Assembly (NCBI RefSeq): GCF_035599575.1
Contig: NZ_CP141179.1
Coordinates: forward strand, 3,162,001 to 3,226,000
DNA length: 64,000 nucleotides
Direction of reading: 5' to 3'
Source of the DNA: Roseovarius sp. Pro17
GTDB lineage: Bacteria; Pseudomonadota; Alphaproteobacteria; Rhodobacterales; Rhodobacteraceae
Part shown: in pieces, positions 10,084 through 52,341 of the stretch
Layout: each line of letters begins with the position of its first letter
Numbering within the stretch: the first letter of the stretch is position 1
Translations under genes and position numbers: made by a program
The notes under the pieces: generated by a model
What the model was told of the DNA's origin: nothing
Databases searched by the model: none
Seen by the model: only the letters and a program-made list of their open reading frames with translations

Positions 10084-10953
10084 ATGGACAAATTGCTATT
10101 CGGCGACAACCAGTTCTTTGGCATCAACCATATGTCCGAAGAAAAGGCCCGCGCACAGTCGATGCGGTTCCAGAAGACGGACGCCATCATGGATGTGCTC
10201 GACGTTGCATATGACGAGGGGATTCCCACCTTCATGTGCACGACCCATGACCGCATCGCCCAAGTGGCCGACCGTATTCGCGCGGCCCCGGAACGCTACC
10301 CTGACTTCACTTTTTACCCCTGCATGCCCTATGCCCATAAATATGCCAATGCCGTGACCGAATATGGCATGCTTGGCAGCTTGCGACACTTCATGCCCGA
10401 CGATGGCCTGTTCAGCACCGCCTTGACCGGTGGAAAGGCGTTGGCCACCAAGGAAATTGACGGGATCATCAAGATCCTCATCGATATGGAGATGAAGATG
10501 TTTGCCGGGCTTAAAACGCCCGTAATCTTCATGCAGAACGTGTTCACGGATCTTTTCCTTGGTATGGGGTTTACCCGCGTTTTTCGCACCTTTCACGATC
10601 ATGTCGTCGAAAAGTACAACGCCGAGCCAGCCTATATCACGATGAACATGCCGATGCTTCTCAAGGCGCTGGAATCCGAGGGTATCGAACGGCCGATCAT
10701 CTGTTCTAATATCAACAAGATAGGGTTTCGCATGTCTGGAGGCTTTGATGCGTATCTGGATGCGCTGAAATCCGGCCGTGTTCGCGCCGTGGCCATGTCG
10801 GTCTATGCGTCCGGGGCGCTGCCGCCTGACGAGGCCATTCAATGGGTGTCCGAACTGCCGGGCGTGGAATCCATCGTGTTCGGCGCGTCTAGCGCGGCCA
10901 ACATCCGCAGCACCAGGATACTAGTGGACCGTTATATGAAAGAATCCGCGTGA
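10084..10953 (+). CDS. TIM-barrel-like protein of unknown function
   Basis: 289 residues, start set by an AGGAG 8 nt before ATG. It opens with KLLFGDNQFFGINHM and shows alternating strands and helices as in an (alpha/beta)8 barrel: DEGIPTFMCTTHDR, FTFYPCMPYAHKYAN, TPVIFMQN, PIICSNINKIGFRM, VRAVAMSVYASGALPP and ESIVFGASSAANIRST. The last two strands resemble aldo/keto reductases (the family's phosphate-binding GxSS region), but the AKR catalytic Tyr-Lys pair is not evident. It is 15 bp after the oxidoreductase and its stop overlaps the next start (TGATG), so it acts in the same pathway, perhaps as an isomerase, aldolase or lyase on a sugar intermediate. I do not assign a reaction. Confidence 0.7.
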   Translation: MDKLLFGDNQFFGINHMSEEKARAQSMRFQKTDAIMDVLDVAYDEGIPTFMCTTHDRIAQVADRIRAAPERYPDFTFYPCMPYAHKYANAVTEYGMLGSLRHFMPDDGLFSTALTGGKALATKEIDGIIKILIDMEMKMFAGLKTPVIFMQNVFTDLFLGMGFTRVFRTFHDHVVEKYNAEPAYITMNMPMLLKALESEGIERPIICSNINKIGFRMSGGFDAYLDALKSGRVRAVAMSVYASGALPPDEAIQWVSELPGVESIVFGASSAANIRSTRILVDRYMKESA

Positions 10954-11756
10954 TGGCAGATGCAGGCACAGATCCACAAGACAGTCTTCATAGCAGTCAC
11001 ACCTACCCAAAGGTGAAACTGCTTAACGTCTATGTACATGACGTGACGATGGACGAGGTGGTCGAGAATTTCACCGAAGGCATGATGCTCACCTTGCATG
11101 TCGACATGATCATGAAACTGCAGCGTGACAAGGAGTTCTACGATATCTTCGATCAGTTTGATCTGATCACCTGCGACAGCCAGGTCTTGTATTTCGCCAC
11201 TAAATTCCTTGGCACGCCAGTGCAGGAACGAGTCTCGGGGTCGGATTATTTCCCGCGGTTCTACATGCACCACAAGGACAATCCTGACATCACGGTTTTC
11301 TTGTGCGGCGGCCAGCCTGGAATTGCCGAAATCGCAGCAAAGAACATCAACAAAAAGGTGGGACGCGAGATCATCGTCGGGACCGATGCGCCCTCTTTCG
11401 ATTTCGACCAAAACCAAGCTGAAACCGATCAGATGATCGACAGGATAAATGCATCAGGCGCGACCGTGCTTCTGGTCGGTCTCGGTGGCGGACGTCAGGA
11501 AAAGTTCATCATTCGCTATCGCGACCGCATGCCCAATATCAAGCTCTACCTGCCCTTGGGCGGCACCATCGATTACGAGGCGGGCACTTTTAAACGCCCC
11601 CCCGCCTGGATCACCGAAGGGGGTTTTGAGTGGCTGTACAGATTGCTCAAGGAGCCACGTCAAAGATGGCACCGCTATGTTGTTCACGAGCCACCCGTGC
11701 TGTGGCGGCTGGCAGCGCAGCGACTTGGGTTTTATCGCGATCCCTTTGCGAAATAA
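10953..11756 (+). CDS. WecG/TagA/CpsF-family glycosyltransferase (GT26)
   Basis: 267 residues from the ATG at 10953, which overlaps the preceding TGA; a GTG three bases earlier is less likely. Diagnostic segments in order: VKLLNVYVHDVTMDE, HVDMIMKL, LITCDSQVLYFATKFLG, ERVSGSDYFPRF, VFLCGGQPG and ATVLLVGLGGGRQEKFI, then LPLGGTIDYEAG and RPPAWITEGGFEWLYRLLKEP, the last being the signature C-terminal motif. These enzymes transfer ManNAcA or a related sugar to a polyprenyl-linked acceptor at the inner membrane, often as the second sugar of a repeat unit. It closes the plus-strand polysaccharide operon and converges on the T1SS genes. Confidence 0.93.
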   Translation: MADAGTDPQDSLHSSHTYPKVKLLNVYVHDVTMDEVVENFTEGMMLTLHVDMIMKLQRDKEFYDIFDQFDLITCDSQVLYFATKFLGTPVQERVSGSDYFPRFYMHHKDNPDITVFLCGGQPGIAEIAAKNINKKVGREIIVGTDAPSFDFDQNQAETDQMIDRINASGATVLLVGLGGGRQEKFIIRYRDRMPNIKLYLPLGGTIDYEAGTFKRPPAWITEGGFEWLYRLLKEPRQRWHRYVVHEPPVLWRLAAQRLGFYRDPFAK

Positions 11757-13143: not shown

Positions 13144-13355
13144 TTGTTTGCCTGCTCTGCTCGACGGGCTGCTTCCGGCGCTGTTGACCGCGCTCTGCAA
13201 CCTCTATGCTCGATTTCTTTCTAGCAAAGAATGAGTATCATTTATCGTCAGCAGCGCGCAAATCGTGAATTTACACGAAGATTGTTGCCGGTATGTGTCA
13301 TATTTGTCCCAAAATCCCAATTATTTGCACATGCGACTAGTGGTCAAAGCAATGC

Positions 13356-16791: not shown

Positions 16792-19700
16792 ATGGACAAT
16801 ATGAACCAGAGCAATCTCAAAAGAGAGAACGACATCGCCATTGTCGGGATGGCCGCCCACCTGCCGGGGGCGGCGTCGATCGACAGCTATTGGACCAATC
16901 TGCGGGACGGAGTGGAATCCATCCGTCAGCTGAGCGAGGAAGAGCTACTGGCAGCCGGAGAGGCGGCGCATCTTCTCAGGCGTGACGACTACGTGCCCAC
17001 TGCCGCGCCCTTGGACGGGTTCGAGACCTTTGATGCCGAATTCTTTGGCCTGTCTCCCAAAGAAGCGGCGATCATGGACCCCCAGCACCGCCAGCTTCTG
17101 GAAGTGGCCTGGGAGGCATTTGAGAACGCCGGACACACGCCCGAAGGCTTTTCAGGCCCCATCGGCGTCTACGCTGGCTGCGGCATGGGCAGTTATTTCT
17201 ATTTCAACGTCTGCTCCAACCCCGATCTTGTCGACAGTGTGGGGATGTTCCTGCTGCGCCATACCGGCAACGACAAGGATTTTCTGTCCACCCGGCTCAG
17301 TCATATTATGGACCTGACGGGGCCCAGTATCAGCATTCAGACAGCCTGCTCGACCTCGCTGGTGGCCGCGCATTACGCCTGCCAGTCACTTCTGACCGGT
17401 GAATGCGACATGGCTCTGGCAGGCGGTGTGACGATAGAACTGCCCCAAAACAGGGGATATCTCTATAAGGAAGGCGAAGTGCTGTCGCCGGATGGCCATT
17501 GCCACGCCTTCGACCACCGCGCTCAGGGCACCGTATTTGGATCGGGGGCTGGTGTCGTCGTGTTGCGCAGGCTGGCCGATGCCATTGCCGACGGCGATCA
17601 CATATGGGGCGTCATCCGCGGCACCGCGATCAATAATGACGGCGCGGCCAAAGCCGGCTATCTGGCCCCGTCGGTTGACGGTCAGGCCGCCGCCATCGCC
17701 GAAGCTCACACAATGGCCGAGGTTACGGCCGACACGATCGATTATGTTGAATGCCACGGCACTGGCACGTATCTGGGCGATCCGATTGAGATCGCGGCCC
17801 TGACCCAAGCGTTTTCGGAAACCACGCAAGAGACCGGGTACTGCCGGGTCGGGTCGGTCAAAACCAATATCGGCCATCTCGATACTGCGGCCGGTGCCGC
17901 CAGCCTTATCAAGACGGCGCTATCGCTGCATAACCGTCAGATCCCGCCGAGCTTGGGATACGAGAGGGCCAACCCGACCATCGATTTCGAAAACAGCCCG
18001 TTTCGCGTGAACGACCGCCTTGTTGATTGGATATCCCACAAAGGGCCGCGGCGGGCCGGGGTCAATTCCCTCGGAGTTGGCGGCACGAACGCCCATGCCG
18101 TGCTGGAGGAAGCCCCCGAACCCACGGCATCGGACCCGTCTGACTGGCCGTTCCAGATTCTCGTATCATCGGCACGCTCCAAAGCGGCACTTGATGCGGG
18201 TAGCCAGGCGCTGGCGGATCACTTGCGCGCCCACCCCGAACAGCCGCTGGCCGATGTGGCCTGGACGCTCAAGCAAGGACGCCGGGGTTTCGAAAAACGC
18301 CGGGTCGTTGTGGCCGAAACTCACGAGCAGGCAGCAAAGATGCTGGAGGAGAACGATCCGCGGCGGGTTTTCAGCCATTCCGTTGTGACCGAAGACCCAG
18401 AGATCGTCTTTATGTTTCCCGGTGGTGGGGCGCAATATGCCGGGATGGCCCGCGATCTCTATGAAACAGAGCCGGTCTTTGCCGAATGGATGGATCGCGG
18501 TCTCGAAATCCTTCAGCCCAAGCTTGACTACGACATCCGCGCCATCTGGCTGCCGGAAACAGGCCAGGAGGGTGCGGCTGATGCACGGCTACAGGCCCCA
18601 TCGGTGCAATTGCCGCTAATCATGATAGTCGAATACGCTTTGGCACAACTCTGGATGTTCTGGGGCGTAAAGCCGACGGCGTTCGTCGGCCATTCCATGG
18701 GCGAAAATACGGCCGCCTGCCTGGCTGGTGTCTTTTCCTTCGAAGATTGCATCGGTCTGGTGCATTTGCGCGGCAAGCTTTTTGATACGGTTCCGGCGGG
18801 CGGCATGCTCAGCGTGGCCCTCCCTGCGTCCGAGCTTCTGCCTCTGCTCGGCGAAGACCTCGACCTTGCCGCGATCAACGCGCCGGGTCTGAGCGTGGCG
18901 ACGGGCGCGCAAGCCGCACTTGATACACTGCAGGCAGAGCTGACCGCCCGCGAAGTCGACTGCCAGCGCATTCCGATCGACATCGCAGCACATTCCCGGA
19001 TGCTCGCCCCCATTCTCGAAGAGTTCGGCAATTATCTGCGCTCGATCGAATTGCACGCTCCGCAGATCCCGTTCGTCTCAAACCGGACGGGCACCTACAT
19101 CACCGCCGAGGAAACGACTGATCCCGACTATTGGGTCGGACATCTGCGCAATACGGTTCGCTTTGCCGACTGCATGACGACACTGGCCGAAACCCCGGAC
19201 CGCGTCTTCATCGAGGTTGGACCCGGCAAGGCGTTGGCCTCGTTGACGTCACAAAATGACAAAGTCACTGCAAATCAGGTCATCAGCAGCCTGCGCCATC
19301 CCCAGGACGATATCCCCGATGACGCCTATTTTCTGGCCATGCTGGGCCGGCTCTGGGCCGTTGGCGGCACGTTCGACTGGGGCCAGATTTGGGGTGAGGC
19401 ACGGCGCAACCGCGTCCCGCTGCCCACCTATGCCTTTCAGCGCGCGCCCTATTTCATCGAACCCGGCAAGGCGGCGGCTGATACCGGATCGCATTGGCTG
19501 ATGCGCAGCGAGGATCCCGCAGAATGGGGATATAGGCCCGCTTGGACCCCGCGCTATGCCGCTTGCGATGTCGACGTGACGAACGATCTGGCCGCAGCCG
19601 GGCAGGAAACCTGGCTGATCTTCGACGATGATGCCGGGTTGACTGGAATCGTCTCTGAGCGGCTGCGCGCCGCAGGACATCCCGTCATTACAGTCACCCC

Positions 19701-22700
19701 CGGTGACACCTTCGCCAGAACCGGTGACAAGAGCTATGTGATCGCCCCCGAGCGAGGACGCGAAAGCTATGATGCGCTGATCCGCGATCTGGCCGCTCGC
19801 GAGATGATTCCGACCCGGATCGTGCATGGTTGGCTGCTGACGAAGACCGAAAGCTTCCGTCCGGGCAGCAGTTTTTTCCACCGCACCCAGGAACAGGGAT
19901 TTTACAGCCTACTTTTCCTGACTCAGGCCATGGCAGACGAGGGCCTGTCCCAGCCCCTGCATGTGACAGTGCTGACGAACGGCGCGGTTCAGGTTCGCGA
20001 TGAGCCCCTGCCCTATCCCGAAAAAGCAACGGTGATGGGTCCAGCCCGGGTAATGCCCCGCGAATTTCCGGGGCGAAGCTGCTCCGTGCTGGACCTGATC
20101 CTGCCGGAAACAGGCGGAACGCGGCGCAAGGCACTGGACCCGGCGGCGATGCGGAAACTATCCGACCGTGTTCTTGAGGATCTTCTATCGCCACCCGCCT
20201 CGCTGACCGCCGCACTGCGCGGAGAAAAACGGTTTGAGCTGACCTATCGGTCGCTCCCCCTGCCCGAGCCTGAAACAGATACGGCGCCGCTGCAGGAAAA
20301 CGGCATCTACCTGATCACCGGCGGATTTGGCGGGATCGGCCTGACCATTGCCGAAATGCTGATCCGCAAGGCATCGGCCCGCATCGTGCTGCTGGCCAGA
20401 AGCGCGCTGCCGGAGCGCGACGCCTGGGCGCAGATGCTAGATCAGCTCGCCCCGCAGGACCCCGTTGCAAAACGCATCCGGGCCGTCCAGCGCCTAGAGG
20501 ACGCCGGCGGACAAGTCACCTGCATCACGGCCGACGTCAGCAATGTCGAAGATATGCGGGCCGCGCGTGACCATGTCGAACAAAGTCTGGGCACGATCAA
20601 TGGCGTTATCCACGCTGCGGGCCTGATCGACGACGCCCCCATTCTAAGCAAGACCATAACCGGGATCGAGGATGTCTTTGCATCGAAAATCCACGGCACG
20701 CAGGTTCTGGACACCGTCTTTCCGGACGGAACACTTGACTGGCTGGTCCTGTTTGCATCGACGTCCACCGCGACGGCCCCGGCTGGCCAAGTCGATTACG
20801 TGGCGGCGAACGAGTATCTCAACGCCTACGCCAAATCCCGCGCTGGCGACCAGACACTGGTGCGCGCCATTAACTGGGGGCTGTGGGCCGATGTCGGCAT
20901 GGCCGCCGACGCGATGGAAGCCCGAACAGGCAGCGTCACCCCGCCGCCAGTCAAACCCGCCGGGGTGCCCATGCTGGACGAAGCCTCATTCGATGGCATC
21001 GGGAACCAACTGTTCACTACCCAATATCAGGCAGCAGAACGCTGGTTCCTCGACGATCACCGCACCATAGCTGGCGATGCGATCATGCCGGGAACCGGCT
21101 ATCTAGAACTGGCAGCCCAAGCCTTGCACGCCCAAGGTGAAACGAGCGGTTTCGAAATCCGCGACCTTTACTTCCTGCGCCCGCTTGCCGTTCCGGATGA
21201 TCAGGACCGCGCCATTCGTGTAACTCTGCCGCGCAACGATACCGGATACGAATTCACCGTCGAAAGCGGTGACGGAACCAGCTTTGAGCAAAACGCTCAA
21301 GCCACTTTGTCATTCTTGCCTCAAACCGCCCCCGCGCCTCTCGATCTGGATGCGATCCGCGCCAGATGCACCAAATCCATAGCCAAGGCGCCCGACGGTG
21401 CCTGGCTTAGATCCCGGCAAGAGGCGCATCTGAAATTCGGGGCACGGTGGCATGTCCTGCAGTCAAGCGCCTTGGGCGACGGCGAGGGGGTCGCGCATCT
21501 GCGCCTGCCCGCAAAGGTGCAGGATGACATTCAAGACGGTTACCGCCTGCATCCCGGTCTGATGGATCTTGCTACCGGTTGGGCGATGGACCTCATCGCC
21601 GGATATGAGCCTACCCATCTGTGGGTGCCGGTTTCGTATCGGTCGGTCCGCGTCTTTCGGGCCTTGCCCGCCGAAGTCGTCAGTTGGGTCCGCAACGCCG
21701 GCGCCAACCGGGGCGATAGCGAAACGGCCAGTTTCGATATCACTATCGCGGCCCCAGACGGTAGCATCTGTGTCGACATCACCGGTTTCTCAATCCGTCG
21801 CATGGAACAGGGTGTCGCCTTCGCGGCGGGCGCTGCACAGCATGCAAAAACACCGCGCGCCGATGAGGGCCCCAGACCGTTGTCTGCGGCCGAAGAACGG
21901 CTGCAGCATAACCTGTCGCAAGGTATCCGGGCCGAGCAGGGGGCCGATCTCTTTCTCAGGGCGCTGGCTGTGCAACAGCCGCAGGTCATCGTGTCGTCCC
22001 TCGAGCTGGGCGATCTGATCCGTCAGGCGGGACCAGAGGATGCAGGCGCAGGTGGGGTCGAGCAGAAATTCGAGCGTCCCCAGCTGGACTCGGACTATGT
22101 CGCCCCTGCAAATGAAATCGAAAATCGGCTGGCCGGCTTCTGGCAAGACTTGCTTGGCGTGGACCAGATCGGGGTCGAAGACAGCTTTTTCGACTTAGGC
22201 GGACATTCCCTGATTGCCGTGCGGCTCTTTGCCCAGATCCGCAAAGCATATCAGGTTGATTTCCCGATCTCGGTGCTATTCGAGGCCCCTACCATCCGCA
22301 AATGCGCCGATCTGATCGCCGCCCAAGGCATCGCACCCGGAAGCGACGACGAAGCGGATGCGTCAACGCCCGCCGCCGCGCCCGAGCGCCGCTTCACGCA
22401 TCTTGTCCCCATGCATTCGGGGGAAGGCGGCTCGAAAACTCCATTTTTCCTGGTGGCCGGAATGTTCGGAAATGTGCTGAACCTGCGTCATCTGGCTCAT
22501 CTTCTGGGCACCGACCGTCCGTTTTACGGTCTGCAGGCCAGGGGGCTTTACGGCAATGAAGAACCGCATCACTCGATCGTCGAGGCGGCGCGCGACTATA
22601 TTGCCGAGATGCGCATGGTCCAGCCAAACGGACCTTATATGGTCGGTGGTTTTTCCGGCGGAGGTATTACCGCATACGAGATTGCCCAGCAATTGGTCGC

Positions 22701-23268
22701 AGATGGCGAAGATATCGCCGCGCTAGTCATGCTCGACACCCCGCTTCCGGTGCGTCCGCCACTGACCACCCGCGACCGAGCCATGATCCAGTGGTTGGAT
22801 CTGCGCGGCAAGGGCCTTGCCTATCCCGCCCAATGGCTGCGCAACAGGATCGCATGGGAACTAAAGAAACGCAGTCAGCCCGACGACGAAGCCGAAGTGG
22901 AAGCCGGACAGCAGTTTCACGACACTGCCATCGAAGCCGCGTTTCTGGACAGCGTGAGCTCTTATGAGGTTTCGCCCTGGGGCGGCCCACTGACCCTGTT
23001 CCGCCCCCCCATGGTCGGGAAATGGCAGGTCGCGCCTGACCGCCTCGTCAATGCGGACCGACACTATGTCATACATGACAACGACTGGGCGAAATGGGCG
23101 CCGCAAGTCGAGGTGATCGAGGTGCCCGGTGATCACGATTCCATGGTTCTCGAACCCAATGTCCGCGTTCTGGCCGCCCGAATGAAGCGCTGTATTGAGA
23201 CTGCCGAGCAGGCACGGCGGGACACTTTCGGGACGGCAAAGAACCAACTTAAAAAGGCGGCTGAATAA
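16792..23268 (+). CDS. Type I polyketide synthase, KS-AT-KR-DH-ACP-TE
   Basis: 2158 residues. KS (about 12-435) has the full triad: C186 in TACSTSLVAA, H322 in ECHGTGT and H362 in KTNIGHLDTAAG. AT (about 525-830) has S635 in GHSMGEN and the loop DIAAHS, which matches neither the malonyl HAFH nor the methylmalonyl YASH type, so the extender unit is uncertain. KR (about 1165-1380) has the GGFGGIG loop at 1177 and the Y1336 region VDYVAANEY. DH (about 1410-1670) has H1423 in HRTIAGDAIMP and D1592 in HPGLMD. ACP has S1806 in DLGGHSL. TE (about 1870-2130) has S1955 in GFSGGG and H2115 in GDHDS. There is no ER or methyltransferase. KR before DH is the reverse of the usual order. A TE implies the product is released here. 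It heads the operon to 29618. Confidence 0.95.
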   Translation: MDNMNQSNLKRENDIAIVGMAAHLPGAASIDSYWTNLRDGVESIRQLSEEELLAAGEAAHLLRRDDYVPTAAPLDGFETFDAEFFGLSPKEAAIMDPQHRQLLEVAWEAFENAGHTPEGFSGPIGVYAGCGMGSYFYFNVCSNPDLVDSVGMFLLRHTGNDKDFLSTRLSHIMDLTGPSISIQTACSTSLVAAHYACQSLLTGECDMALAGGVTIELPQNRGYLYKEGEVLSPDGHCHAFDHRAQGTVFGSGAGVVVLRRLADAIADGDHIWGVIRGTAINNDGAAKAGYLAPSVDGQAAAIAEAHTMAEVTADTIDYVECHGTGTYLGDPIEIAALTQAFSETTQETGYCRVGSVKTNIGHLDTAAGAASLIKTALSLHNRQIPPSLGYERANPTIDFENSPFRVNDRLVDWISHKGPRRAGVNSLGVGGTNAHAVLEEAPEPTASDPSDWPFQILVSSARSKAALDAGSQALADHLRAHPEQPLADVAWTLKQGRRGFEKRRVVVAETHEQAAKMLEENDPRRVFSHSVVTEDPEIVFMFPGGGAQYAGMARDLYETEPVFAEWMDRGLEILQPKLDYDIRAIWLPETGQEGAADARLQAPSVQLPLIMIVEYALAQLWMFWGVKPTAFVGHSMGENTAACLAGVFSFEDCIGLVHLRGKLFDTVPAGGMLSVALPASELLPLLGEDLDLAAINAPGLSVATGAQAALDTLQAELTAREVDCQRIPIDIAAHSRMLAPILEEFGNYLRSIELHAPQIPFVSNRTGTYITAEETTDPDYWVGHLRNTVRFADCMTTLAETPDRVFIEVGPGKALASLTSQNDKVTANQVISSLRHPQDDIPDDAYFLAMLGRLWAVGGTFDWGQIWGEARRNRVPLPTYAFQRAPYFIEPGKAAADTGSHWLMRSEDPAEWGYRPAWTPRYAACDVDVTNDLAAAGQETWLIFDDDAGLTGIVSERLRAAGHPVITVTPGDTFARTGDKSYVIAPERGRESYDALIRDLAAREMIPTRIVHGWLLTKTESFRPGSSFFHRTQEQGFYSLLFLTQAMADEGLSQPLHVTVLTNGAVQVRDEPLPYPEKATVMGPARVMPREFPGRSCSVLDLILPETGGTRRKALDPAAMRKLSDRVLEDLLSPPASLTAALRGEKRFELTYRSLPLPEPETDTAPLQENGIYLITGGFGGIGLTIAEMLIRKASARIVLLARSALPERDAWAQMLDQLAPQDPVAKRIRAVQRLEDAGGQVTCITADVSNVEDMRAARDHVEQSLGTINGVIHAAGLIDDAPILSKTITGIEDVFASKIHGTQVLDTVFPDGTLDWLVLFASTSTATAPAGQVDYVAANEYLNAYAKSRAGDQTLVRAINWGLWADVGMAADAMEARTGSVTPPPVKPAGVPMLDEASFDGIGNQLFTTQYQAAERWFLDDHRTIAGDAIMPGTGYLELAAQALHAQGETSGFEIRDLYFLRPLAVPDDQDRAIRVTLPRNDTGYEFTVESGDGTSFEQNAQATLSFLPQTAPAPLDLDAIRARCTKSIAKAPDGAWLRSRQEAHLKFGARWHVLQSSALGDGEGVAHLRLPAKVQDDIQDGYRLHPGLMDLATGWAMDLIAGYEPTHLWVPVSYRSVRVFRALPAEVVSWVRNAGANRGDSETASFDITIAAPDGSICVDITGFSIRRMEQGVAFAAGAAQHAKTPRADEGPRPLSAAEERLQHNLSQGIRAEQGADLFLRALAVQQPQVIVSSLELGDLIRQAGPEDAGAGGVEQKFERPQLDSDYVAPANEIENRLAGFWQDLLGVDQIGVEDSFFDLGGHSLIAVRLFAQIRKAYQVDFPISVLFEAPTIRKCADLIAAQGIAPGSDDEADASTPAAAPERRFTHLVPMHSGEGGSKTPFFLVAGMFGNVLNLRHLAHLLGTDRPFYGLQARGLYGNEEPHHSIVEAARDYIAEMRMVQPNGPYMVGGFSGGGITAYEIAQQLVADGEDIAALVMLDTPLPVRPPLTTRDRAMIQWLDLRGKGLAYPAQWLRNRIAWELKKRSQPDDEAEVEAGQQFHDTAIEAAFLDSVSSYEVSPWGGPLTLFRPPMVGKWQVAPDRLVNADRHYVIHDNDWAKWAPQVEVIEVPGDHDSMVLEPNVRVLAARMKRCIETAEQARRDTFGTAKNQLKKAAE

Positions 23269-23272: not shown

Positions 23273-24277
23273 ATGCCCAACCCAAACGTTCTGACCATCA
23301 TTCTGAATTACAAGACAGCGCCGATGACCCTGCGCTCGACCGAAGCGGCCTTGGCCGCAATGGACGGAATTTCCGGTGAAATCGTTATTGTCGACAACGA
23401 TTCCCAAGATGGATCATTCGAGGCTATCTCGGCCCATATCGCGAAAAGTGGGTGGGATCGTGTGAGGGTCTTACAGTCGGGCCGCAACGGCGGCTTTGGT
23501 GCTGGCAACAATGTCGGCATCCGTGCCGGGCTGGCTGACGGCTCAAGACCCGACTACGTCTATGTCCTGAATTCGGATGCCTTTCCGGCACCCGACGCGA
23601 TCGGGCACCTGCTGACCTATCTCGACGCCAATCCCGAAATCGGCTTTGCAGGCAGTTATATCCACGGCGAGGACGGCGAAACACACCTGACCACGTTCCG
23701 GTTTCCGTCGGTTTTCAGCGAGTTCGAGGGGGCGATCAAGTTCGGTCCCGTGTCCAAATTGCTCGCCGCCCATGCTGTCCCTGTGCAGACCCCGTCCCAA
23801 GATAGCTTGGTTGACTGGTTGGCTGGCGCCAGCCTGATGATGCGCCAACCTGTGCTGGATGAGATCGGCCTTTTCGACGAAACCTTCTTTCTCTATTTCG
23901 AGGAAACCGATCTGTGTCTGCGCGCGCGCCGTGCCGGATATCGCACTGCCTTTGTTCCCAAAAGCGAAGTCGCGCATATCGGTTCGGTCACAACTGGCAT
24001 GAAAGGCTGGGAAAAGGTGCCGAATTACTGGTTCGACTCGCGCTTGCATTACTTTGTCAAAAACCACGGTTCTCTCTATGCTGCGGTTGCCACGCTTGCA
24101 CATCTCGCCGGTGGCGGGCTGCACTGGCTGCGTTGCCTTGTGACCCGCAAGCCCCTAGATGTTAAGCCCAATTTCCTGGTCACCATGGCACGGCATGATT
24201 TGCGCGCCTTGAGCCGGGCCGTCTTTGTGTTCAGGCGCAGAAAAGCCGACTGCGCCAAACCCGCTATCGGAGATTAG
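23273..24277 (+). CDS. Family 2 (rhamnosyltransferase-like) glycosyltransferase in the PKS/NRPS operon
   Basis: 334 residues from the ATG at 23273; the frame is open back to 23195, but that part overlaps the PKS end. GT-A features: LTIILNYKTAPMTLRS, IVIVDNDSQDGS, the acceptor loop SGRNGGFGAGNNVGIR, YVYVLNSDAFP (metal site NSD instead of DxD), WLAGASLMMRQPV, and FFLYFEETDLCLRARRAGY, the ED motif typical of rhamnosyltransferase-like GT2 enzymes. The C terminus has a weak hydrophobic segment and a basic tail. Placement between the PKS and NRPS genes, 4 bp after one and 2 bp before the other, indicates it glycosylates the product of one or both, or joins it to a glycan. Confidence 0.9.
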   Translation: MPNPNVLTIILNYKTAPMTLRSTEAALAAMDGISGEIVIVDNDSQDGSFEAISAHIAKSGWDRVRVLQSGRNGGFGAGNNVGIRAGLADGSRPDYVYVLNSDAFPAPDAIGHLLTYLDANPEIGFAGSYIHGEDGETHLTTFRFPSVFSEFEGAIKFGPVSKLLAAHAVPVQTPSQDSLVDWLAGASLMMRQPVLDEIGLFDETFFLYFEETDLCLRARRAGYRTAFVPKSEVAHIGSVTTGMKGWEKVPNYWFDSRLHYFVKNHGSLYAAVATLAHLAGGGLHWLRCLVTRKPLDVKPNFLVTMARHDLRALSRAVFVFRRRKADCAKPAIGD

Positions 24278-24279: not shown

Positions 24280-27200
24280 ATGTCCATGTTCCGCTCTGTA
24301 ATCATTGGCAATGAATCCCTCGCTGTTCAATGCGGTGAAATGCTGCTGGAAGGCGGGCATGCCATTGCTGCGGTCGTCACCCGTAATCGCGATGTCCGGG
24401 ACTGGGCCAAATCCCATGATCTGCCCGTCCATGCGCCGGGCGCCGGTCTTGCCGAACGGCTTGTCGATAGCGAGTTTGACTGGCTTTTCAGCATCGCCAA
24501 TCTCGACCTCATCCCGCAGGCTGTTCTGGACATGGCCGCTAAGGGCGCGGTGAATTTTCACGACGGCCCCCTGCCTAGTTATGCGGGTCTGAACGCGCCG
24601 ATCTGGGCCCTGATCAATCAGAAACAACGGCATGGCATCACCTGGCACATGATTTCAGGGGAGATCGACAAGGGCGATATCATATCCCAGACCCAATTCG
24701 ACATCAGCGACAGGGATACCGGCCTGACCCTGAATACAAAATGCTACAGCGCAGCAATCGAAAGCTTTGGTGCGGTCATCAGTGCGCTTGCCTCAGGCGC
24801 TCCGGAACTCACACCGCAGGATCTGTCGCAGCGCAGCTACTTTGCGCGGGACGACCGACCCAAGGCCGCAGGCCGGTTGGATTTCACGCAACCCGCCGAA
24901 GCCCTGGCCGCCTTGGTCCGCGCGCTCGATCATGGGGATTACTGGAATCCGCTATGTTGCCCGAAAATCGCCGCCGCAGACCAGATATGGCTGCCCCGAA
25001 CCGCCACTATTGCGGATAAGGGCCCGGACGCCGTCCCCGGCACGGTGATCGCCGCCGATTCCGGAACCCTGACTGTGGCGACAGGAACCCGGCCCATTAT
25101 TCTGAGTGAATTCCGAGATTGTTTTGGCGCAATCGTTCGCGCCGATGCCATTGCGCGGCCCGGTGACCTGCTCCCATCGGTCACGGCGCAGGAGGCAGAA
25201 CTGATCTCCGCCGCCCTGGCCAGTGCATTGCCGGGCGAAGCGCATCGGCGCGCGCGACTGGAGACGATGATACATCCCGAATTATCGCTGATCGATCCGG
25301 GCGCAGACTCCGGGCGGGCCATTCAAAAGGCGCTGCAGCTTCGCAAAACCGCCAGCCCCGAAATTCTGCAAGCAGCGCTGGCGTTATTTGTCGCCCGTCT
25401 TGGTGAAACCGACCAGATCGACATTGCCTGGCAGTTACCGGGCGGGCCGGATACCCCGCAATCGGGCTACATCAGTGATTGGGTTCCGGTTCGGACCGAA
25501 ATCCGCCAAACTGTTGCGGCGGTCCGCGACGCCCTTGCCCGCGACATCAAAACCGCTCGCGAACTTGGCGGGTTCCCATGTGATCTGGCGGCCCGCATTC
25601 CCGACCTTCGCCAGCCTTGCATTCCTGCGGTTGGCCTATCCCAAGACATAACGCAGGGTCTGATTGAGGGGACGTCGCTGACACTTTTGATGGCCGATGG
25701 AGACGCCACGCTCGTCGCCAATAGCGGCCATGTCACCGAAGACGCGCTTGACCTGATCGCTGCCCGCCTGGAGCATCTATGCACCCTGATGAGTGATCCG
25801 GCATCGGATGATCTTGAGGCGACAGACCTGCCCATCCTGCCGGAGACCGAGCAGACTCTGGTCCTGCGCACATGGAACGACACGGTTGCCGATTATGACG
25901 AAACCGCATGTATTCACCAGCTTTTCGAAGCTCAGGTTGCCCGGACACCGGACGCGGACGCCATCGTTTTCGAGGGTGAAACTCTCACATATTCCCAACT
26001 GAATACGCGCGCCAATCAGGCCGCGCATATTCTGCGTGACATGGGGGTCGGGCCGGGAACGCTGGTCGGGATCCATACCCGCCGCTCACCTGATCTGCTA
26101 ATAGGTGCGCTGGCCATACTAAAGGCCGGCGCTGGCTATGTCCCGATGGATCCGGCCTATCCCGCCGACCGCACCGCGCTCTATATTGAGGATAGCGCCG
26201 CACCAGTCGTCATCACGCAATCCGATCTGGCGGCGGACTTGCCGCCTCACGACGCTCAGGTTCTTCTTCTCGACACCAAACAGGTGCTGCAAGAGACCCG
26301 GCAGGACAATCCTCAAAGCGATGTTACGTCAAAGGATATCGCTTACGTGATCTATACCTCGGGCTCAACCGGGCGGCCCAAGGGTGTGATGATCGAGCAC
26401 CGGAATGTATCAAACTTCTTCACCGGTATGGACGCCCGCATCCGGCATGACCCGCCGGGCATCTGGCTGGCCGTAACCAGTCTGTCCTTCGACATCTCGG
26501 TTCTGGAACTGTTCTGGACCCTGACCCGTGGCTTCAAGCTGATCCTCAGCAGCGACGAAAATCGCGCCCTTGTGGCAGGAGCATCTACACAACGGCGGGC
26601 CGTCTCAGGAAAAGGCATGGAGTTTAGCCTCTATTATTGGGGGAATGACGACAAGCCGGGGCGTGAGAAGTACCGGCTGATGCTGGAAGGCGCCAAGTTC
26701 GCCGATCAAAACGGGTTCTGCGCCGTTTGGACGCCGGAACGGCATTTCCACGCTTTCGGTGGGCCCTACCCCAACCCGTCCGTCACCGGGGCCGCCGTCG
26801 CAGCGGTCACGCGCAATATCGCTGTGCGCGCAGGCAGTTGCGTTGCCCCGCTGCACCACATCGCCCGCATTGCCGAGGAATGGTCGGTGGTCGACAACCT
26901 CACCAATGGGCGTGCAGGTCTTGCCATTGCATCTGGTTGGCAGCCGGACGATTTCCTACTGAAGCCTGAAAACACGCCTCCACAAAACAAGGAAGCGATG
27001 TTCGACGCCATCCGCGACCTGCGCAAGTTGTGGAAGGGCGAGCCGGTCGAGTTTCCCCGCCAAAACGGCGAGATGCATGCAGTGCTGACCCAGCCCAGAC
27101 CCGTCTCGGACGCGCCTGAAATTTGGGTCACGACCGCTGGTAACCCCGAAACTTGGAAGGATGCCGGCCGTCACGGCGCCCATATCCTGACCCATCTTCT

Positions 27201-28962
27201 GGGCCAGAGCGCTGACGAAGTAGCCGAAAAGATCGGTCTCTATCACGCTGAGTTGCGAAAGGCAGGCCATAATCCAGATGATTTCAAGATCACCCTGATG
27301 CTGCACACCTTCGTGGCCGAAACGCGCGAAAAGGCGCGCGATGTCGCCAGTGGGCCAATGAAGGACTACCTGCGCTCGGCCGCTGGCTTGATCAAGCAAT
27401 ACGCTTGGGCCTTTCCTGCCTTCAAAAAACCCGAGGGTGTAACCAATCCGTTCGAACTTGACCTAGGAGAGCTTGAGCCGGACGAAATGGAAGGCATCCT
27501 TGATTTCGCGTTCGAGCGGTATTTTGAGGACTCTGGGCTGTTTGGCACGATTGAGGACTGTCTCGACCGAGTCGAGCAGCTAAAGCGGATCGGCGTCAGT
27601 GAAATCGCCTGCCTAATTGAATACGGGATCCCCGTGGATGACGTTCTGGAGGGTCTGAAGCCCCTGACCGAGGTGCTGCGTCAGTCCAACACCGCAGAAA
27701 CATTGCCCGATGACGATTTTTCAATCGCTGCCCAGATCGTCCGGCACGACGTGACCCATCTGCAATGCACGCCGAGCATGGCGCAGATGTTGTTGATGAA
27801 CGACGAGGCAAGATATGCCCTCAAAAGGATAAAGCACGTGATGATCGGCGGCGAGGCGCTGTCCGGTTCTCTGGTTTCAGAGCTTGCTACTCTGACCGAC
27901 GCGCATATTGAAAACATGTACGGCCCCACAGAAACGACCATCTGGTCGACGACCGAAACCGCCATCCCCGTCGAGGGGATCGTCAATATCGGTCGGCCCA
28001 TAGCCAATACGCAGGTCTATGTGCTGGACGAAGATCTGCGCCCTGTTCCCGTCGGCCAACCCGGAGATCTTTATATCGCAGGTGCAGGGGTGGCACGCGG
28101 CTACTGGCAACGGCCCGACCTGACGGAAGAGCGTTTTGTGGACGACCCCTTTAGCGGCACTGACGCCCCTATGTACCATACCGGTGATCTGGCGCGCTGG
28201 CGCACCGATGGGCGGCTCGATTTTCTGGGCCGCGCCGATCATCAGGTCAAACTGCGCGGCTACCGGATTGAGCTGGGCGAAATCGAGAGCGTCATCGACG
28301 CCTTCCCCGGCGTGCGTCAATCGGTGGTCATGGCCCGCGAAGATACCCCGGGGCTGACCCAGCTCGTCGCCTATCTAATAACCGACGCCCCTGTCAGCGA
28401 CAGCAATTTGCGCGAACGCCTTGCGGCGAACCTGCCGGATTATATGGTGCCGACGCATTTCGTCACGCTGGACAGCTTGCCGCTGACACCGAACAAGAAG
28501 ATTGATCGCAAGGCACTGCCAGCCCCTGCGCCGCGTGTCGCCGCCGCGCAGCCCGCTGACACAGCCACAGCCACAGCCACAGCCACAGCCACAGCCACAG
28601 CCAAAGTCGCTAATGGCGGCGATACGGTGCAAAAGATTGCGGCCATATGGTCTCAGATTCTTGGTATCCCCAATATTGGCGGGCGCGATAATTTCTTTGA
28701 TCTCGGCGGGCATTCCCTTCTGGCGGTCCAGGCGCATCGCGAGATCCGCAAGCACCTTGCGGTTCCGAAGCTGAGCATTACGGACATCTTCCGCTTTCCG
28801 ACCCTCTCGGCGCTGGCCGCAACCGTCGACGAAAAAACCGGTGCCGCAGAACCTGAAACGCCGCAGAATAGCCCGGCAGCAGAAGACAAGGCCGCCAGCC
28901 GCAGCGATGCCATGTCGCGCCGCCGTGCGATGCGGGCAAGGCGCCCATCCAACACTGCATGA
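24280..28962 (+). CDS. NRPS: formyltransferase - partial C - A (interrupted by luciferase-like monooxygenase) - PCP
   Basis: 1560 residues; start supported by CGGAGA about 10 nt upstream. Residues 1-310 are a methionyl-tRNA-formyltransferase-like domain with N92, H94 and D130 at the spacing of the Fmt catalytic triad, and GPLPSYAGLNAP in place of SLLPRWRGAAP. About 340-540 resembles only the C-terminal lobe of a condensation domain; no HHxxxDG is present. A domain: A3 YTSGSTGRPKG (692-702), A4 FDISVLELFW (D738), then a luciferase-like monooxygenase from M780 to about 1140 (MEFSLYYWGNDDKPG; VWTPERHFHAFGGPYPNPS; GLAIASGWQPDDF). The A domain resumes with A5 NMYGPTETTIW (1212-1222), A7/A8 YHTGDLAR and KLRGYRIELGEIES, and A10 K1407. 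PCP has S1479 in DLGGHSLL. There is no TE. Expected: activate one amino acid, oxidise it on the carrier and possibly N-formylate it. The substrate code cannot be read reliably. Confidence 0.93.
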   Translation: MSMFRSVIIGNESLAVQCGEMLLEGGHAIAAVVTRNRDVRDWAKSHDLPVHAPGAGLAERLVDSEFDWLFSIANLDLIPQAVLDMAAKGAVNFHDGPLPSYAGLNAPIWALINQKQRHGITWHMISGEIDKGDIISQTQFDISDRDTGLTLNTKCYSAAIESFGAVISALASGAPELTPQDLSQRSYFARDDRPKAAGRLDFTQPAEALAALVRALDHGDYWNPLCCPKIAAADQIWLPRTATIADKGPDAVPGTVIAADSGTLTVATGTRPIILSEFRDCFGAIVRADAIARPGDLLPSVTAQEAELISAALASALPGEAHRRARLETMIHPELSLIDPGADSGRAIQKALQLRKTASPEILQAALALFVARLGETDQIDIAWQLPGGPDTPQSGYISDWVPVRTEIRQTVAAVRDALARDIKTARELGGFPCDLAARIPDLRQPCIPAVGLSQDITQGLIEGTSLTLLMADGDATLVANSGHVTEDALDLIAARLEHLCTLMSDPASDDLEATDLPILPETEQTLVLRTWNDTVADYDETACIHQLFEAQVARTPDADAIVFEGETLTYSQLNTRANQAAHILRDMGVGPGTLVGIHTRRSPDLLIGALAILKAGAGYVPMDPAYPADRTALYIEDSAAPVVITQSDLAADLPPHDAQVLLLDTKQVLQETRQDNPQSDVTSKDIAYVIYTSGSTGRPKGVMIEHRNVSNFFTGMDARIRHDPPGIWLAVTSLSFDISVLELFWTLTRGFKLILSSDENRALVAGASTQRRAVSGKGMEFSLYYWGNDDKPGREKYRLMLEGAKFADQNGFCAVWTPERHFHAFGGPYPNPSVTGAAVAAVTRNIAVRAGSCVAPLHHIARIAEEWSVVDNLTNGRAGLAIASGWQPDDFLLKPENTPPQNKEAMFDAIRDLRKLWKGEPVEFPRQNGEMHAVLTQPRPVSDAPEIWVTTAGNPETWKDAGRHGAHILTHLLGQSADEVAEKIGLYHAELRKAGHNPDDFKITLMLHTFVAETREKARDVASGPMKDYLRSAAGLIKQYAWAFPAFKKPEGVTNPFELDLGELEPDEMEGILDFAFERYFEDSGLFGTIEDCLDRVEQLKRIGVSEIACLIEYGIPVDDVLEGLKPLTEVLRQSNTAETLPDDDFSIAAQIVRHDVTHLQCTPSMAQMLLMNDEARYALKRIKHVMIGGEALSGSLVSELATLTDAHIENMYGPTETTIWSTTETAIPVEGIVNIGRPIANTQVYVLDEDLRPVPVGQPGDLYIAGAGVARGYWQRPDLTEERFVDDPFSGTDAPMYHTGDLARWRTDGRLDFLGRADHQVKLRGYRIELGEIESVIDAFPGVRQSVVMAREDTPGLTQLVAYLITDAPVSDSNLRERLAANLPDYMVPTHFVTLDSLPLTPNKKIDRKALPAPAPRVAAAQPADTATATATATATATAKVANGGDTVQKIAAIWSQILGIPNIGGRDNFFDLGGHSLLAVQAHREIRKHLAVPKLSITDIFRFPTLSALAATVDEKTGAAEPETPQNSPAAEDKAASRSDAMSRRRAMRARRPSNTA
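28561..28602 (+). repeat. Seven tandem ACAGCC hexamers inside the NRPS gene
   Basis: Seven perfect copies of ACAGCC encode (Thr-Ala)7 in the linker between the adenylation and carrier domains. Because the unit is six bases, gain or loss of copies keeps the frame and would only change linker length. Sequence on both sides is ordinary for the gene. Confidence 0.95.
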
Positions 28963-29618
28963 CCCGTCAGGCGGTCGTAGCTGATGCGCTGCAAAACCTT
29001 TTGGGGCCAGATTTCGGGATTGGCGTAACCGATCCCACTGAGGCCGGTGGCGGTCTGTGGCCCCAAGAGACACCGGCTATTGCCAAGGCAGTGCGCAAAC
29101 GGCGGCTTGAATTCACCGCCGGCCGCGTCGCCGCCCGGCAGGCCATGGCAGAGCTTGGCTTGCCGCCGCAGCCGGTCCTTCAGGCCCCCGATCGCGCCCC
29201 GCTCTGGCCCACGGGCATGATTGGAAGTATTGCCCATTGCGACAGGGTCTGCATTGCCGCAATTGCCCTATCGGGCACGGCCCGCAGCATCGGCATTGAC
29301 ATCGAACCGGACACCGCCCTGCCCGCTGACCTGGAACAGATCATCTGCACCCCAAACGAGCGCCGCTGGCTTGACCGCCATCCGCTGGCTGATCGCGACC
29401 GATTGGCCAAACTGATCTTTAGCTGCAAGGAAAGTGTCTACAAAGCCCAGTACCCACTAACCGGCGAGATGATCGGCTTTGAGATGGTCGAAATTCAGCC
29501 CGACTTGGCAAGACACAGTTTTCTGGCTCTGCCATCAAAAAAATCCGTTTTTGGCAGGTTGAGCGGGCAGTTTGCATTCGCAGGCGGCTTTATACTAACT
29601 TGCTACAGAATACTCTAG
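28959..29618 (+). CDS. Sfp/EntD-type 4'-phosphopantetheinyl transferase
   Basis: 219 residues. Family motifs: RRLEFTAGRVAARQAM (P1-like), WPTGMIGSIAHCDRVC (P2), IGIDIEPD with metal ligands D114 and E116, and FSCKESVYKA with E158 and K162. EntD-like features such as the HC pair are present. The enzyme transfers 4'-phosphopantetheine from CoA to the serines of the ACP (S1806 of the PKS) and PCP (S1479 of the NRPS), switching on both. The start overlaps the NRPS stop (ATGA), so it is made in step with its substrate and is the last gene of the operon. Confidence 0.94.
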   Translation: MTRQAVVADALQNLLGPDFGIGVTDPTEAGGGLWPQETPAIAKAVRKRRLEFTAGRVAARQAMAELGLPPQPVLQAPDRAPLWPTGMIGSIAHCDRVCIAAIALSGTARSIGIDIEPDTALPADLEQIICTPNERRWLDRHPLADRDRLAKLIFSCKESVYKAQYPLTGEMIGFEMVEIQPDLARHSFLALPSKKSVFGRLSGQFAFAGGFILTCYRIL

Positions 29619-30989: not shown

Positions 30990-31949
30990 ATGACCATATT
31001 CCCCCGACTTCATACCCGCCTGAAACGGCTTGCCCCGGTCGCTCTTTTGTTGCTCCTCGCCGCCTGCGGGGGCGTGGCCCGGTGCGGATCTGCCAAGCCG
31101 TTGGACAAGGCCAAGTTTGATGCCCTCTACACCGATCCGGCGCCAATACCGACCGGTTCGCAAGCTGCCTTTTACATCGGACACAGCTTGGTCGGGCGCG
31201 ACATGCCAGCCATGCTGGCACAGCTTGCCGGCAGTGGGCACGTCTATGACAGCCAGTTGGGTTGGGGCACGCCGCTTAAGGCGCACTGGGAACCGGATGA
31301 GCCCATCAACGGGTTCGAGACGGAAAACGACCATCCGCGCTATCGCGATGCCAAAGAGGCCGTTTTATCCGGCGAATATGATGCGCTGATCATGACCGAA
31401 ATGGTCGAAATACGCAGCGCGATCAAGTATTTTGACAGTGCAAAATACTTGCATGAATGGGCCAAGGCCGGATGGGATGCGAATCCGGATCTTAACGTCT
31501 ACCTCTACGAAACTTGGCATGAGTTGATCGATGAAGAGGGCTGGCTGAACCGCATTGATCGCGATCTGGATCGGTATTGGGAAACCGAGATACTTCGTCG
31601 CGCCCTATCCTATGGAGATGCAACCCGCCCGATTTATGTGATTCCCGCCGGTCAGGTCATGGCCCGCTTCGTGCGCGCGGTGGAGAGCCAGGGTGGGGTC
31701 GGGCCGGTCAAAACCCGCGAAGACCTCTTTTCCGACGACATCCACTTCAACGACCTCGGCGCGTATCTGATTGCGCTCACCCAGTATTCGGTGCTGTACC
31801 AGAAATCCCCTGTCGGCCTACCTCATACCCTGAAACGCGCTGACGGATCTGCCGCGACAGATCCGGGCGAAGAGGCCGCACGTTTGATGCAGGAAATCGT
31901 GTGGAAGGTTGTCACGACCTACCCAAAAACCGGAGTGCCGCAAGAGTGA
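30990..31949 (+). CDS. SGNH-hydrolase-like lipoprotein
   Basis: 319 residues. A lipoprotein signal peptide (LLLLLAACGG, lipid Cys26) targets it to the periplasmic membrane face. AFYIGHSLVG holds a Ser in a block I position (GHS instead of GDS), and DDIHFNDLGAYLIAL has the D-x-x-H of block V, so Ser, Asp and His are available. The intermediate Gly and Asn blocks are not obvious. SGNH-fold proteins in polysaccharide loci add or remove acetyl groups or cut glycan esters. No Shine-Dalgarno is visible; the ATG at 30990 is chosen because it gives the complete signal peptide. Confidence 0.72.
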   Translation: MTIFPRLHTRLKRLAPVALLLLLAACGGVARCGSAKPLDKAKFDALYTDPAPIPTGSQAAFYIGHSLVGRDMPAMLAQLAGSGHVYDSQLGWGTPLKAHWEPDEPINGFETENDHPRYRDAKEAVLSGEYDALIMTEMVEIRSAIKYFDSAKYLHEWAKAGWDANPDLNVYLYETWHELIDEEGWLNRIDRDLDRYWETEILRRALSYGDATRPIYVIPAGQVMARFVRAVESQGGVGPVKTREDLFSDDIHFNDLGAYLIALTQYSVLYQKSPVGLPHTLKRADGSAATDPGEEAARLMQEIVWKVVTTYPKTGVPQE

Positions 31950-34853: not shown

Positions 34854-35834
34854 TTATGCGGCTTGTTTCTGGTGTTGCAAGCGGCGCTGTCGGATTGTCT
34901 GTTTCTTGATCTTCTCCCTTTCCCTGAGAATGGCTTTATCGCGGCCGAAGTAGACGTCGGCGGGTGTGACGTTGTTCAGACTCTCGTGGTATCGTTGGTT
35001 ATTGTAATATTCGACGAAGGCCCCGATCTGCTGCTCGAGATCGCCGGGCAGGTAGTAATTCTCCAGCAGAACCCGGTTCTTCATAGTTTGGTGCCAGCGT
35101 TCGATCTTGCCTTGTGTCTGTGGGTGGAATGGCGCCCCGCGGACGTGCGTCATTTTGTGATCCTCCAGCCAATCGGCCAGATCGCCAGAGATATAGCATG
35201 AGCCGTTGTCGCTGAGCAGCCGCGGCTTGTGGCGCACGACCGCCTGGTCGCAACCCGATTCCGCCAGAGCCAACTCGATAGTGTCGGTCACATCGGCAGC
35301 ACGCATGGTGCTGCAGAGCTTCCACGCAATGATGTAGCGGCTGTAATCGTCCAGGATCGTGCTGAGGTAATACCAGCCCCACCCGATGATCTTGAAGTAG
35401 GTGAAATCGGTCTGCCACATCTGGTTGATTGCCGTGGTTTTGTCTTTAAACTCGTCGGCCGCCTTGATCACCACATGCGCGGGCGCCGTGATCAGGTCAG
35501 CTTCCTTCAGAATACGATATGCTGATGATTCAGATATAAAATACCGCTTCTCGTCGGTGTATTTCACCGCCAGCTCCCGTGTCGTCAGGGCCTCAAATTC
35601 CAGCGCGAACTCGATCAAATCATCGCGCCGATCCTGTGGAATACGGTTCCAGACAGAACCTGGACGGGGTGCGTGGTCCGCCAGGGCATCAAGGCCGCCG
35701 TCGACATAACGATCATACCAACGGTAGAAGGTCGCGCGCGGGATGCCCAGCATGTCGAGGGTCTGCCTGGCCGGTAGATGTGAGCCTTCAACCGTTCGGA
35801 TGATTTCCAGCTTCTCGGACGCGGGATACCTCAT
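34854..35834 (-). CDS. IS3-family transposase OrfB (DDE integrase)
   Basis: 326 residues. The N-terminal helix-turn-helix (LPARQTLDMLGIPRATFYRWYDRY) is followed by an rve-type core. QMWQTDFTYFKIIGWGWYYL carries the first Asp, LLSDNGSCYI the second Asp, and HPQTQGKIERWHQTMKNRVL the Glu, so the DDE triad is complete. The C-terminal YYNNQRYHESLNNVTPADVYFG is the standard end of the domain. Its ATG overlaps the orfA stop (ATGA), consistent with coupling. All motifs are intact, so it could be active. Confidence 0.93.
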   Translation of the reverse strand: MRYPASEKLEIIRTVEGSHLPARQTLDMLGIPRATFYRWYDRYVDGGLDALADHAPRPGSVWNRIPQDRRDDLIEFALEFEALTTRELAVKYTDEKRYFISESSAYRILKEADLITAPAHVVIKAADEFKDKTTAINQMWQTDFTYFKIIGWGWYYLSTILDDYSRYIIAWKLCSTMRAADVTDTIELALAESGCDQAVVRHKPRLLSDNGSCYISGDLADWLEDHKMTHVRGAPFHPQTQGKIERWHQTMKNRVLLENYYLPGDLEQQIGAFVEYYNNQRYHESLNNVTPADVYFGRDKAILREREKIKKQTIRQRRLQHQKQAA

Positions 35835-44449: not shown

Positions 44450-44485
44450 GCCATCCCCCTTCACCGGCTTGACGCCATGGGGATA

Positions 44486-45268: not shown

Positions 45269-45526
45269 GAATTCCGGTCTGAGAGCAACTATGCGCGGTA
45301 ATGTGCGTTGGTATCAGATTCCAGTCTTCGCTAGGCAATTTTTTTTGCGTCCGTTGTGGCTGCAAGCCTGGCTGACCCACATCTTGCGGGTTTTACACCT
45401 TTATTTCAAATCTTTATGATACTTTCGCCCACACCATAAAGTCGCGCAAAACCGAAAGTAAAACCTGTTCTTTTCGTCATCGCTTGTTAAGTTGCCGGCA
45501 GCTACCAAGAAATTGCGAGGGATTGC
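45269..45526. promoter_or_regulatory. glpR-glpD control region with TTTCG half-sites
   Basis: 258 bp between divergent genes. ACTTTCG at 45421-45427 and CGAAAGT at 45453-45459 form a perfect 7-bp inverted repeat, and another TTTTCG lies at 45471-45476. Repeated TTTCG half-sites are typical of DeoR-family operators. The cluster ends 51 bp ahead of the glpD start. The rest is A+T-rich with a run of T around 45340. Assignment as GlpR operators is an inference. Confidence 0.4.
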
Positions 45527-52338: not shown

Positions 52339-52341
52339 GGG

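Follow-up and report, generated by a model that had tools for sequence, protein, structure and literature searches.

In the assembly of myxothiazol and melithiazole, a flavin monooxygenase (MOX) lies between motifs a4 and a5 of the glycine adenylation (A) domain of a nonribosomal peptide synthetase (NRPS); the alpha-carbon of glycine is hydroxylated, after which the carbinolamide cleaves and a glyoxyl thioester is left for the thioesterase (TE) (PMC10204066), an account that the available part of PMC11342130 matches for myxothiazol and melithiazol. Solanimycin B keeps its alpha-hydroxyglycine, and SolF likewise carries a flavin monooxygenase in a glycine A domain, although the insert lies between a8 and a9 and serves chain elongation, and the available part of the account mentions no formyltransferase (PMC10204066). 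Formylating F domains belong to initiation modules, where they act after carrier loading, and have been reported also from anabaenopeptilide and kolossin A (PMC8949500). Here we present an NRPS of Roseovarius sp. Pro17 (Rhodobacteraceae), encoded at 24280..28962 on the forward strand of the 64,000-nucleotide stretch that was analysed (contig NZ_CP141179.1, 3,162,001 to 3,226,000; hereafter the window), which combines a formyltransferase (Fmt) domain, an A domain interrupted by a luciferase-like monooxygenase (LLM) and a peptidyl carrier protein (PCP). We read it tentatively, at somewhat short of an even chance, as a formylating and oxidising glycine starter module that is extended by a neighbouring polyketide synthase (PKS), the product being tied to a surface polysaccharide. 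This grading is a judgement on the reading in outline; the likelihoods of its steps are not independent and were not multiplied.

The open reading frame (ORF) has zero internal stops, and its translation matches the Pfam models Formyl_trans_N (residues 75-158), Formyl_trans_C (195-280), AMP-binding (in two stretches), Bac_luciferase (793-1107), AMP-binding_C (1334-1407) and PP-binding (1451-1515). The NCBIfam model TIGR04020, the MupA/Atu3671 luciferase-like monooxygenase dependent on flavin mononucleotide (FMN), is matched at residues 782-1132 with 462.8 bits against a curated cut-off of 244.45, and the A-domain model TIGR01733 picks up again at residue 1146, past the LLM. A sequence-only reading of this DNA had proposed an Fmt domain, an A domain whose A4 and A5 motifs are split by an LLM, and a PCP. 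This is borne out: the interrupting region is an LLM, the halves are one domain split between A4 (FDIS from residue 737) and A5 (NMYGPTETT from 1212), and the residues that had been singled out (N92, H94, D130, D738 and M780) all lie where they were placed. No TE is matched in the NRPS by Pfam, the partner PKS having one, and PADLOC returned a weak oxidoreductase match and nothing else. The features of the protein are the following.

24280..28962, + strand: NRPS of 1560 aa, Fmt-(C-lobe)-A/LLM/A-PCP (ORF, Pfam, NCBIfam)
24280..25176, + strand: formyltransferase domain, N-terminal fold and C-terminal barrel, residues 1-299, triad N92/H94/D130
25177..25899, + strand: predicted condensation-domain remnant (C-terminal lobe), residues 300-540, without HHxxxDG (profile search, hhalign)
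25912..26553, + strand: N part of the A domain up to A4 (FDIS 737-740), residues 545-758
26617..27684, + strand: inserted luciferase-like FMN monooxygenase (TIGR04020), residues 780-1135 (Pfam, NCBIfam, likeness to PuwE Ox)
27715..28518, + strand: C part of the A domain, A5 (NMYGPTETT 1212-1220) to A10, residues 1146-1413
28560..28603, + strand: simple repeat (CACAGC)7.3 in the A-PCP linker
28630..28824, + strand: PCP, residues 1451-1515, Ser1479 (Pfam)
28903..28944, + strand: basic C-terminal tail SDAMSRRRAMRARR, residues 1542-1555

The linker repeat is a perfect 6-bp repeat that gives a Thr-Ala run, and the closest homologue (P0001) is without it in the alignment. A basic tail 3' of the PCP (e.g. 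DAMSRRRAMRARR) recurs among relatives of the NRPS and is a possible candidate docking element for the PKS.

The protein search led to 6392 matches at E <= 1e-50 among 7992 scored candidates, 120 of which were listed. By eye, every listed homologue has Formyl_trans_N, AMP-binding and Bac_luciferase, and 119 have PP-binding, the exception being P0027 with 1023 aa. The NRPS is carried, sometimes in pieces, by 55 of the 149 sampled genomes of Rhodobacteraceae, and the named loci with a related NRPS are mostly from Rhodobacterales. When 398 genomes were sampled evenly across the phylum, 16 of them had a match at E <= 1e-200 (G437 and G478 only from about residue 475 on); TIGR04020 exceeds its cut-off in 19, and 14 of these show the architecture, one with an in-frame stop. 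These counts rule out a unique protein, and any rarity of the combination falls with the share of family genomes that carry it. A frame error or chimeric gene is unlikely as well, since the same architecture recurs across the 120 listed homologues and in 14 of the 19 TIGR04020-bearing genomes. In a tree of 34 LLM rows (27 with Fmt and 7 without; 13 short-locus rows with undetermined N-terminus were dropped) all Fmt-bearing rows group to the same side of a single branch; its support is poor (89/16) and the branches are long, so that a single origin of the Fmt form is no more than possible.

Public names of these proteins rest mostly on the LLM domain. The sequence-only reading knew of no characterised protein with this domain combination; in the open-access literature we likewise found neither such a protein nor a functional description of the architecture (most subscription papers lay outside the search). 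The available parts of PMC12376047, PMC4062626, PMC8273931 and PMC12858407 give no functional account of the operon. In Paracoccus marcusii CP157, a plasmid carries an unassigned hybrid PKS/NRPS cluster (PMC8273931, available part), which may be the listed Paracoccus homologue H17.

The insert starts with M780, which had been taken as the sign of a fused free-standing gene. This view lost ground: M780, located where the LLM domain borders on the A domain, is conserved to 90% or more across 16 aligned rows, in keeping with an old insertion, and Streptomyces and Nostoc have C-A-LLM-A-PCP proteins whose A domain is interrupted in the same part. The proteins in question, of Streptomyces NBC_01343 and Nostoc C052, share the LLM-interrupted A domain but carry no Fmt, and their condensation domain is complete, PF00668 matching 446 residues in the former and 458 in the latter. 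Additionally, the Streptomyces protein carries a TE and the Nostoc protein an FkbM methyltransferase between the interrupted A domain and the PCP.

The specificity code, with positions assigned by eye from core motifs, consists of D738, I739, L742, Q1162, M1188, G1190, M1213, I1221 and W1222, together with K1407. The resulting DILQMGMIW(K) is one residue off the DILQLGMIWK of MOX-interrupted glycine A domains, a code shown by each of the four MOX-bearing glycine A domains in the available part of a survey (PMC12283262). Among the 120 listed homologues, DILQMGMIW occurs in 112, DILQLGMIW in six and DILQIGMIW in one, the remaining one being truncated. A second set comprises 68 locus proteins selected by the motifs NFHDGPLP and SFDISVLE, which fixes N92, H94 and D738-L742, and hence the first three code letters, and leaves D130 free; here DILQMGMIW is found in 43 and the other codes are 1-2 residues off. 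Judged by this code, the amino acid activated is very probably glycine.

Among solved structures the LLM is nearest to the Ox domain of PuwE (6ket, 43% identity), which has been proposed to help build a 3-amino-2-hydroxy acyl chain (PMC4219810, available part). The TIGR04020 proteins MupA, Atu3671 and PuwE represent the same LLM subfamily as the insert, although PuwE is a PKS-aminotransferase-Ox-NRPS hybrid (PMC4219810, available part). The LLM blocks rank among the most conserved stretches of the NRPS, and the PCP serine is conserved in 119 of the 120 listed homologues.

The Fmt triad N92/H94/D130 is unchanged in all 120 listed homologues and in all 68 locus proteins, N92 and H94 being fixed in the latter by the selection motifs. 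An N-terminal Fmt with the N/H/D triad, followed by A and PCP, is the layout of a formylating initiation module. Between Fmt and A, residues 300-540 have no Pfam match. A profile of 35 rows of relatives, compared with PDB sequences, matches this region to NRPS condensation (C) domains (best McyB, E 2.6e-13); the match reaches significance only in the final ~65 residues of the C domain, an earlier collinear stretch being insignificant. Against three condensation-domain proteins, hhalign aligned 219 of 241 columns (probability 97.9, E 6.3e-13), from the middle of the C domain, downstream of HHxxxDG, through its end. HHxxxDG is absent from all 121 sequences of the homologue set and all 69 of the locus set (query included in each). 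These profiles identify residues 300-540 as the predicted C-terminal lobe of a condensation domain; with that lobe only and HHxxxDG absent, Fmt occupies the place of the catalytic condensation N-lobe. The fold searches covered the Fmt and A/LLM parts of the NRPS.

The C-lobe remnant, the glycine/MOX-type code and, presented below, the conserved gene order and the PKS, glycosyltransferase and polysaccharide surroundings are new relative to the sequence-only reading, whose observation is confirmed and whose interpretation is partly supported. The carrier-bound amino acid that it had predicted, oxidised and possibly N-formylated, fits our data, with glycine most likely and with a formylation and an oxidation that we infer.

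MtaG and MelG are the gene names of the myxothiazol and melithiazol terminal modules. As in these modules, so far as the available accounts describe them, the monooxygenase lies between A4 and A5 of a single glycine A domain, and the code is one residue off that of MOX-bearing glycine A domains. Unlike in them, Fmt and half a condensation domain precede A, in place of a catalytic condensation domain; the TE that clears the glyoxylyl thioester there on the same protein sits here on the PKS, and the module appears to start rather than to end a chain. We know of no LLM insert or C-lobe remnant in LgrA, the formylating initiation module of linear gramicidin. Compared with LgrA, the Fmt presented here has a Formyl_trans_C part and matches ArnA better (70.5 bits, against at most 29.6 bits for LgrA).

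The partner genes and a gene of the surrounding polysaccharide locus are the following.

16792..23268, + strand: partner type I PKS of 2158 aa, KS-AT-KR-DH-ACP-TE (Pfam)
23273..24277, + strand: family 2 glycosyltransferase (GT2), start codon picked by eye (Pfam, NCBIfam)
28959..29618, + strand: 4'-phosphopantetheinyl transferase (PPTase) (NCBIfam)
30990..31949, + strand: putative lipoprotein with SGNH-hydrolase-like motifs (GHSL 64-67, D249xxH252) (motif positions)
10950..11756, + strand: WecG/TagA/CpsF glycosyltransferase of the surrounding polysaccharide locus

The main motifs of the PKS are present. Synteny was studied in the best 80 of at least 575 related loci, a set biased to close relatives in which some loci end at contig edges. 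Of these, 79 have the PKS, 77 have GT2 and 73 have the PPTase; the order PKS-GT2-NRPS on one strand is kept in 75, followed by the PPTase in 69, and in L036 and L056, where a contig edge intervenes, just the end of the PKS is matched. A PKS match exists in each of the 55 NRPS-bearing family genomes. The absence of a TE from the NRPS module, together with the adjoining PKS, suggests that the acyl group probably serves on as a starter, and that the module feeds the PKS can be assumed with good confidence. A divergent relative lies on a plasmid of Aliiroseovarius M344 (L010, 17992-31731), where a large NRPS/PKS gene of 9249 bp comes after the Fmt-LLM-NRPS, beside denitrification (nitrous-oxide reductase) genes; it is a second sub-family with a different partner.

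Regarding the surroundings, neighbour clusters were built by single linkage, one representative of each being typed by Pfam. Wzz occurs in 46 of the 80 loci, a Wzx-type flippase in 41, Wzy_C and a CpsD-like ATPase in 35 each (both with representatives below the Pfam cut-off), WecG in 27, GT4 in 43 and two kinds of GT2 in 36 and 35. At least one of Wzz, Wzx or Wzy-like is present in 67 of 80 loci, and in 74 once CpsD-like and WecG are added. At least 23 of the 55 genomes have a sugar transferase (PF02397) no more than 30 kb from the NRPS, against 1.16 expected under uniform placing in 4 Mb genomes (150 listed places, 72 of them in the 55 genomes). Specifically, the Ruegeria conchae locus adjoins rfbABCD, a sugar transferase and the exosortase XrtD; Aminobacter MSH1, Paracoccus marcusii and Shinella are other named examples of this setting. 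A type I PKS-like protein serving a surface polysaccharide has a precedent in RkpA of Sinorhizobium, a protein like PKSs and fatty acid synthases that acts for the capsular K-antigen; to our knowledge RkpA has no NRPS, Fmt or LLM partner.

The domains, their folds, the glycine-type code, the gene order and the polysaccharide neighbourhood are established by computation, and upon them we propose the following steps, given in the order that we infer. The A domain would activate glycine and load the PCP. Fmt, in place of the lost condensation catalytic lobe, would formylate the amino group from formyl-tetrahydrofolate, and N-formylation of the carrier-bound glycine is probable. The LLM inside the A domain would hydroxylate the alpha carbon with reduced FMN and O2, an alpha-oxidation that we consider reasonably likely, if less so than the formylation. 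The carrier would then hold an N-formyl-alpha-hydroxyglycyl group or, should the carbinolamide cleave, a glyoxylyl unit; the former seems favoured, since formylation would serve no purpose on a nitrogen that is then lost. The acyl group would pass to the KS of the PKS for extension by malonyl-type unit(s), reduction, dehydration and release by the PKS thioesterase. Finally, GT2 and the surrounding polysaccharide genes would employ the product as part of, or attached to, a cell-surface polysaccharide of the Wzx/Wzy type, a destination for which the chances are evenly balanced. It is conceivable, if doubtful, that Fmt replaced the catalytic half of the C domain and turned an MtaG-like chain-cleaving glycine module into a starter for the PKS, whose polyketide would be built into an exopolysaccharide; the starter would be the formylated carbinolamide or, once this has broken, a glyoxylyl aldehyde on the carrier.

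Several observations weigh against the starter-module proposal. Gene neighbourhood is the one tie to polysaccharide, and no Wzx or Wzy gene was found among those window ORFs that were scanned, a part of the total. In the divergent Aliiroseovarius locus the PKS/NRPS partner is a different one, and the stretch shown is free of annotated Wzx/Wzy genes. The PKS matches of G022 and G144 are just 43-45% identical, no better than those of six genomes that have a PKS match (43-46% identity) and no NRPS. By sequence and fold, Fmt is closest to ArnA and Met-tRNA formyltransferases and not to the LgrA F domain, which makes an amino sugar a possible substrate. The AlphaFold2 model of A-LLM-A has a pTM of 0.61, which makes the placement of the LLM relative to A uncertain. 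Lastly, our searches of the open-access literature turned up no assay of such a protein.

The strongest rival explanation keeps the same module and chemistry and makes the product a glycosylated small molecule that is secreted in free form (as a siderophore, a signal or an antibiotic), the polysaccharide neighbourhood being incidental or only a supplier of sugar. The PKS has its own TE, in 75 of 80 loci a GT2 separates the PKS from the NRPS, and LLM relatives belong to puwainaphycin, myxothiazol and solanimycin, which the available accounts present as free natural products; the family name MupA/Atu3671 suggests natural-product clusters, and the Aliiroseovarius relative precedes a large NRPS/PKS in a stretch without annotated Wzx/Wzy. 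Nevertheless, polysaccharide genes (Wzz, Wzx, Wzy, CpsD-like or WecG) are close by in 74 of 80 loci, and the places listed include no TonB receptor at 30 kb or less from the NRPS, the nearest being at 48.9 kb (same-contig distances in nine genomes, by script; other listed places on other contigs, by eye). We regard a free product as possible but rather unlikely.

The combination of a flavin monooxygenase and a formyltransferase is also the logic of N5-formyl-N5-hydroxyornithine siderophores. Fmt and LLM could thus N-hydroxylate and N-formylate glycine, giving a carrier-bound N-formyl-N-hydroxyglycyl starter, a hadacidin-like hydroxamate. Formyl plus one oxygen on glycine could equally yield this hydroxamate and the code is of the glycine type, but the relatives with known or proposed chemistry act, in the available accounts, on the carbon next to the thioester and not on the nitrogen, and the lack of a nearby TonB receptor among the places listed counts against it too; we find it improbable. 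Similarly low is the likelihood that Fmt is a sugar formyltransferase fused to the NRPS, formylating an amino sugar of the surrounding polysaccharide instead of carrier-bound glycine, an explanation favoured by ArnA and sugar N-formyltransferases being among the best Fmt matches and by the loci being polysaccharide loci. An ordinary family member with an inactive LLM or Fmt is highly improbable. Inactive inserts are conceivable in interrupted A domains on general knowledge, and nothing direct speaks for one here; the triad (120/120) and PCP serine (119/120) are kept in the listed homologues, and the LLM blocks show some of the strongest conservation along the sequence.

Other genes of the window were also annotated. 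The 30990-type gene is near the operon in 34 of the 80 loci; its putative SGNH identity is backed by motif positions only, Pfam, NCBIfam and a PDB profile search having lent it no support. Genes such as L062:18403-20937, encoding ~845 aa without a Pfam match and with an N-terminus like that of the 30990 gene, adjoin the NRPS operon elsewhere. A type I secretion set (ABC, HlyD, TolC/OEP) at 11782-16396 adjoins the PKS on the opposite strand; it was rejected as a member of the system, being kept in none of the 80 loci. The upstream polysaccharide region contains, at 3871-6987, a sulfotransferase gene and weak matches, below cut-off, to an APH-like kinase and an NTP-transferase, and possibly suggests a sulfated polymer. 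An integrase/transposase (rve) gene at 34854-35834 separates the polysaccharide part from a flagellar part, in which (43721-55186) flagellar genes (FliP, FlgI, FlgE-like) flank a glycerol set of a glycerol-3-phosphate oxidase-like DAO and an FGGY kinase.

Each part of this module is known, and the combination looks like a natural case in which a module for chain elongation or termination has been converted to chain initiation. If the proposal is true, MOX chemistry would have been put to a new use, at the chain start rather than the chain end, and a new class of assembly-line-made polysaccharide substituent would be present in about one third of the sampled family genomes. The core set is small (PKS, glycosyltransferase, NRPS and PPTase), common and mostly found in loci for surface polysaccharides, and a widespread surface chemistry may therefore be undescribed. 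Our data suggest a common roseobacter-type enzyme, functionally undescribed in the open-access literature, whose loci hint that the polymers of these bacteria carry assembly-line-made groups.

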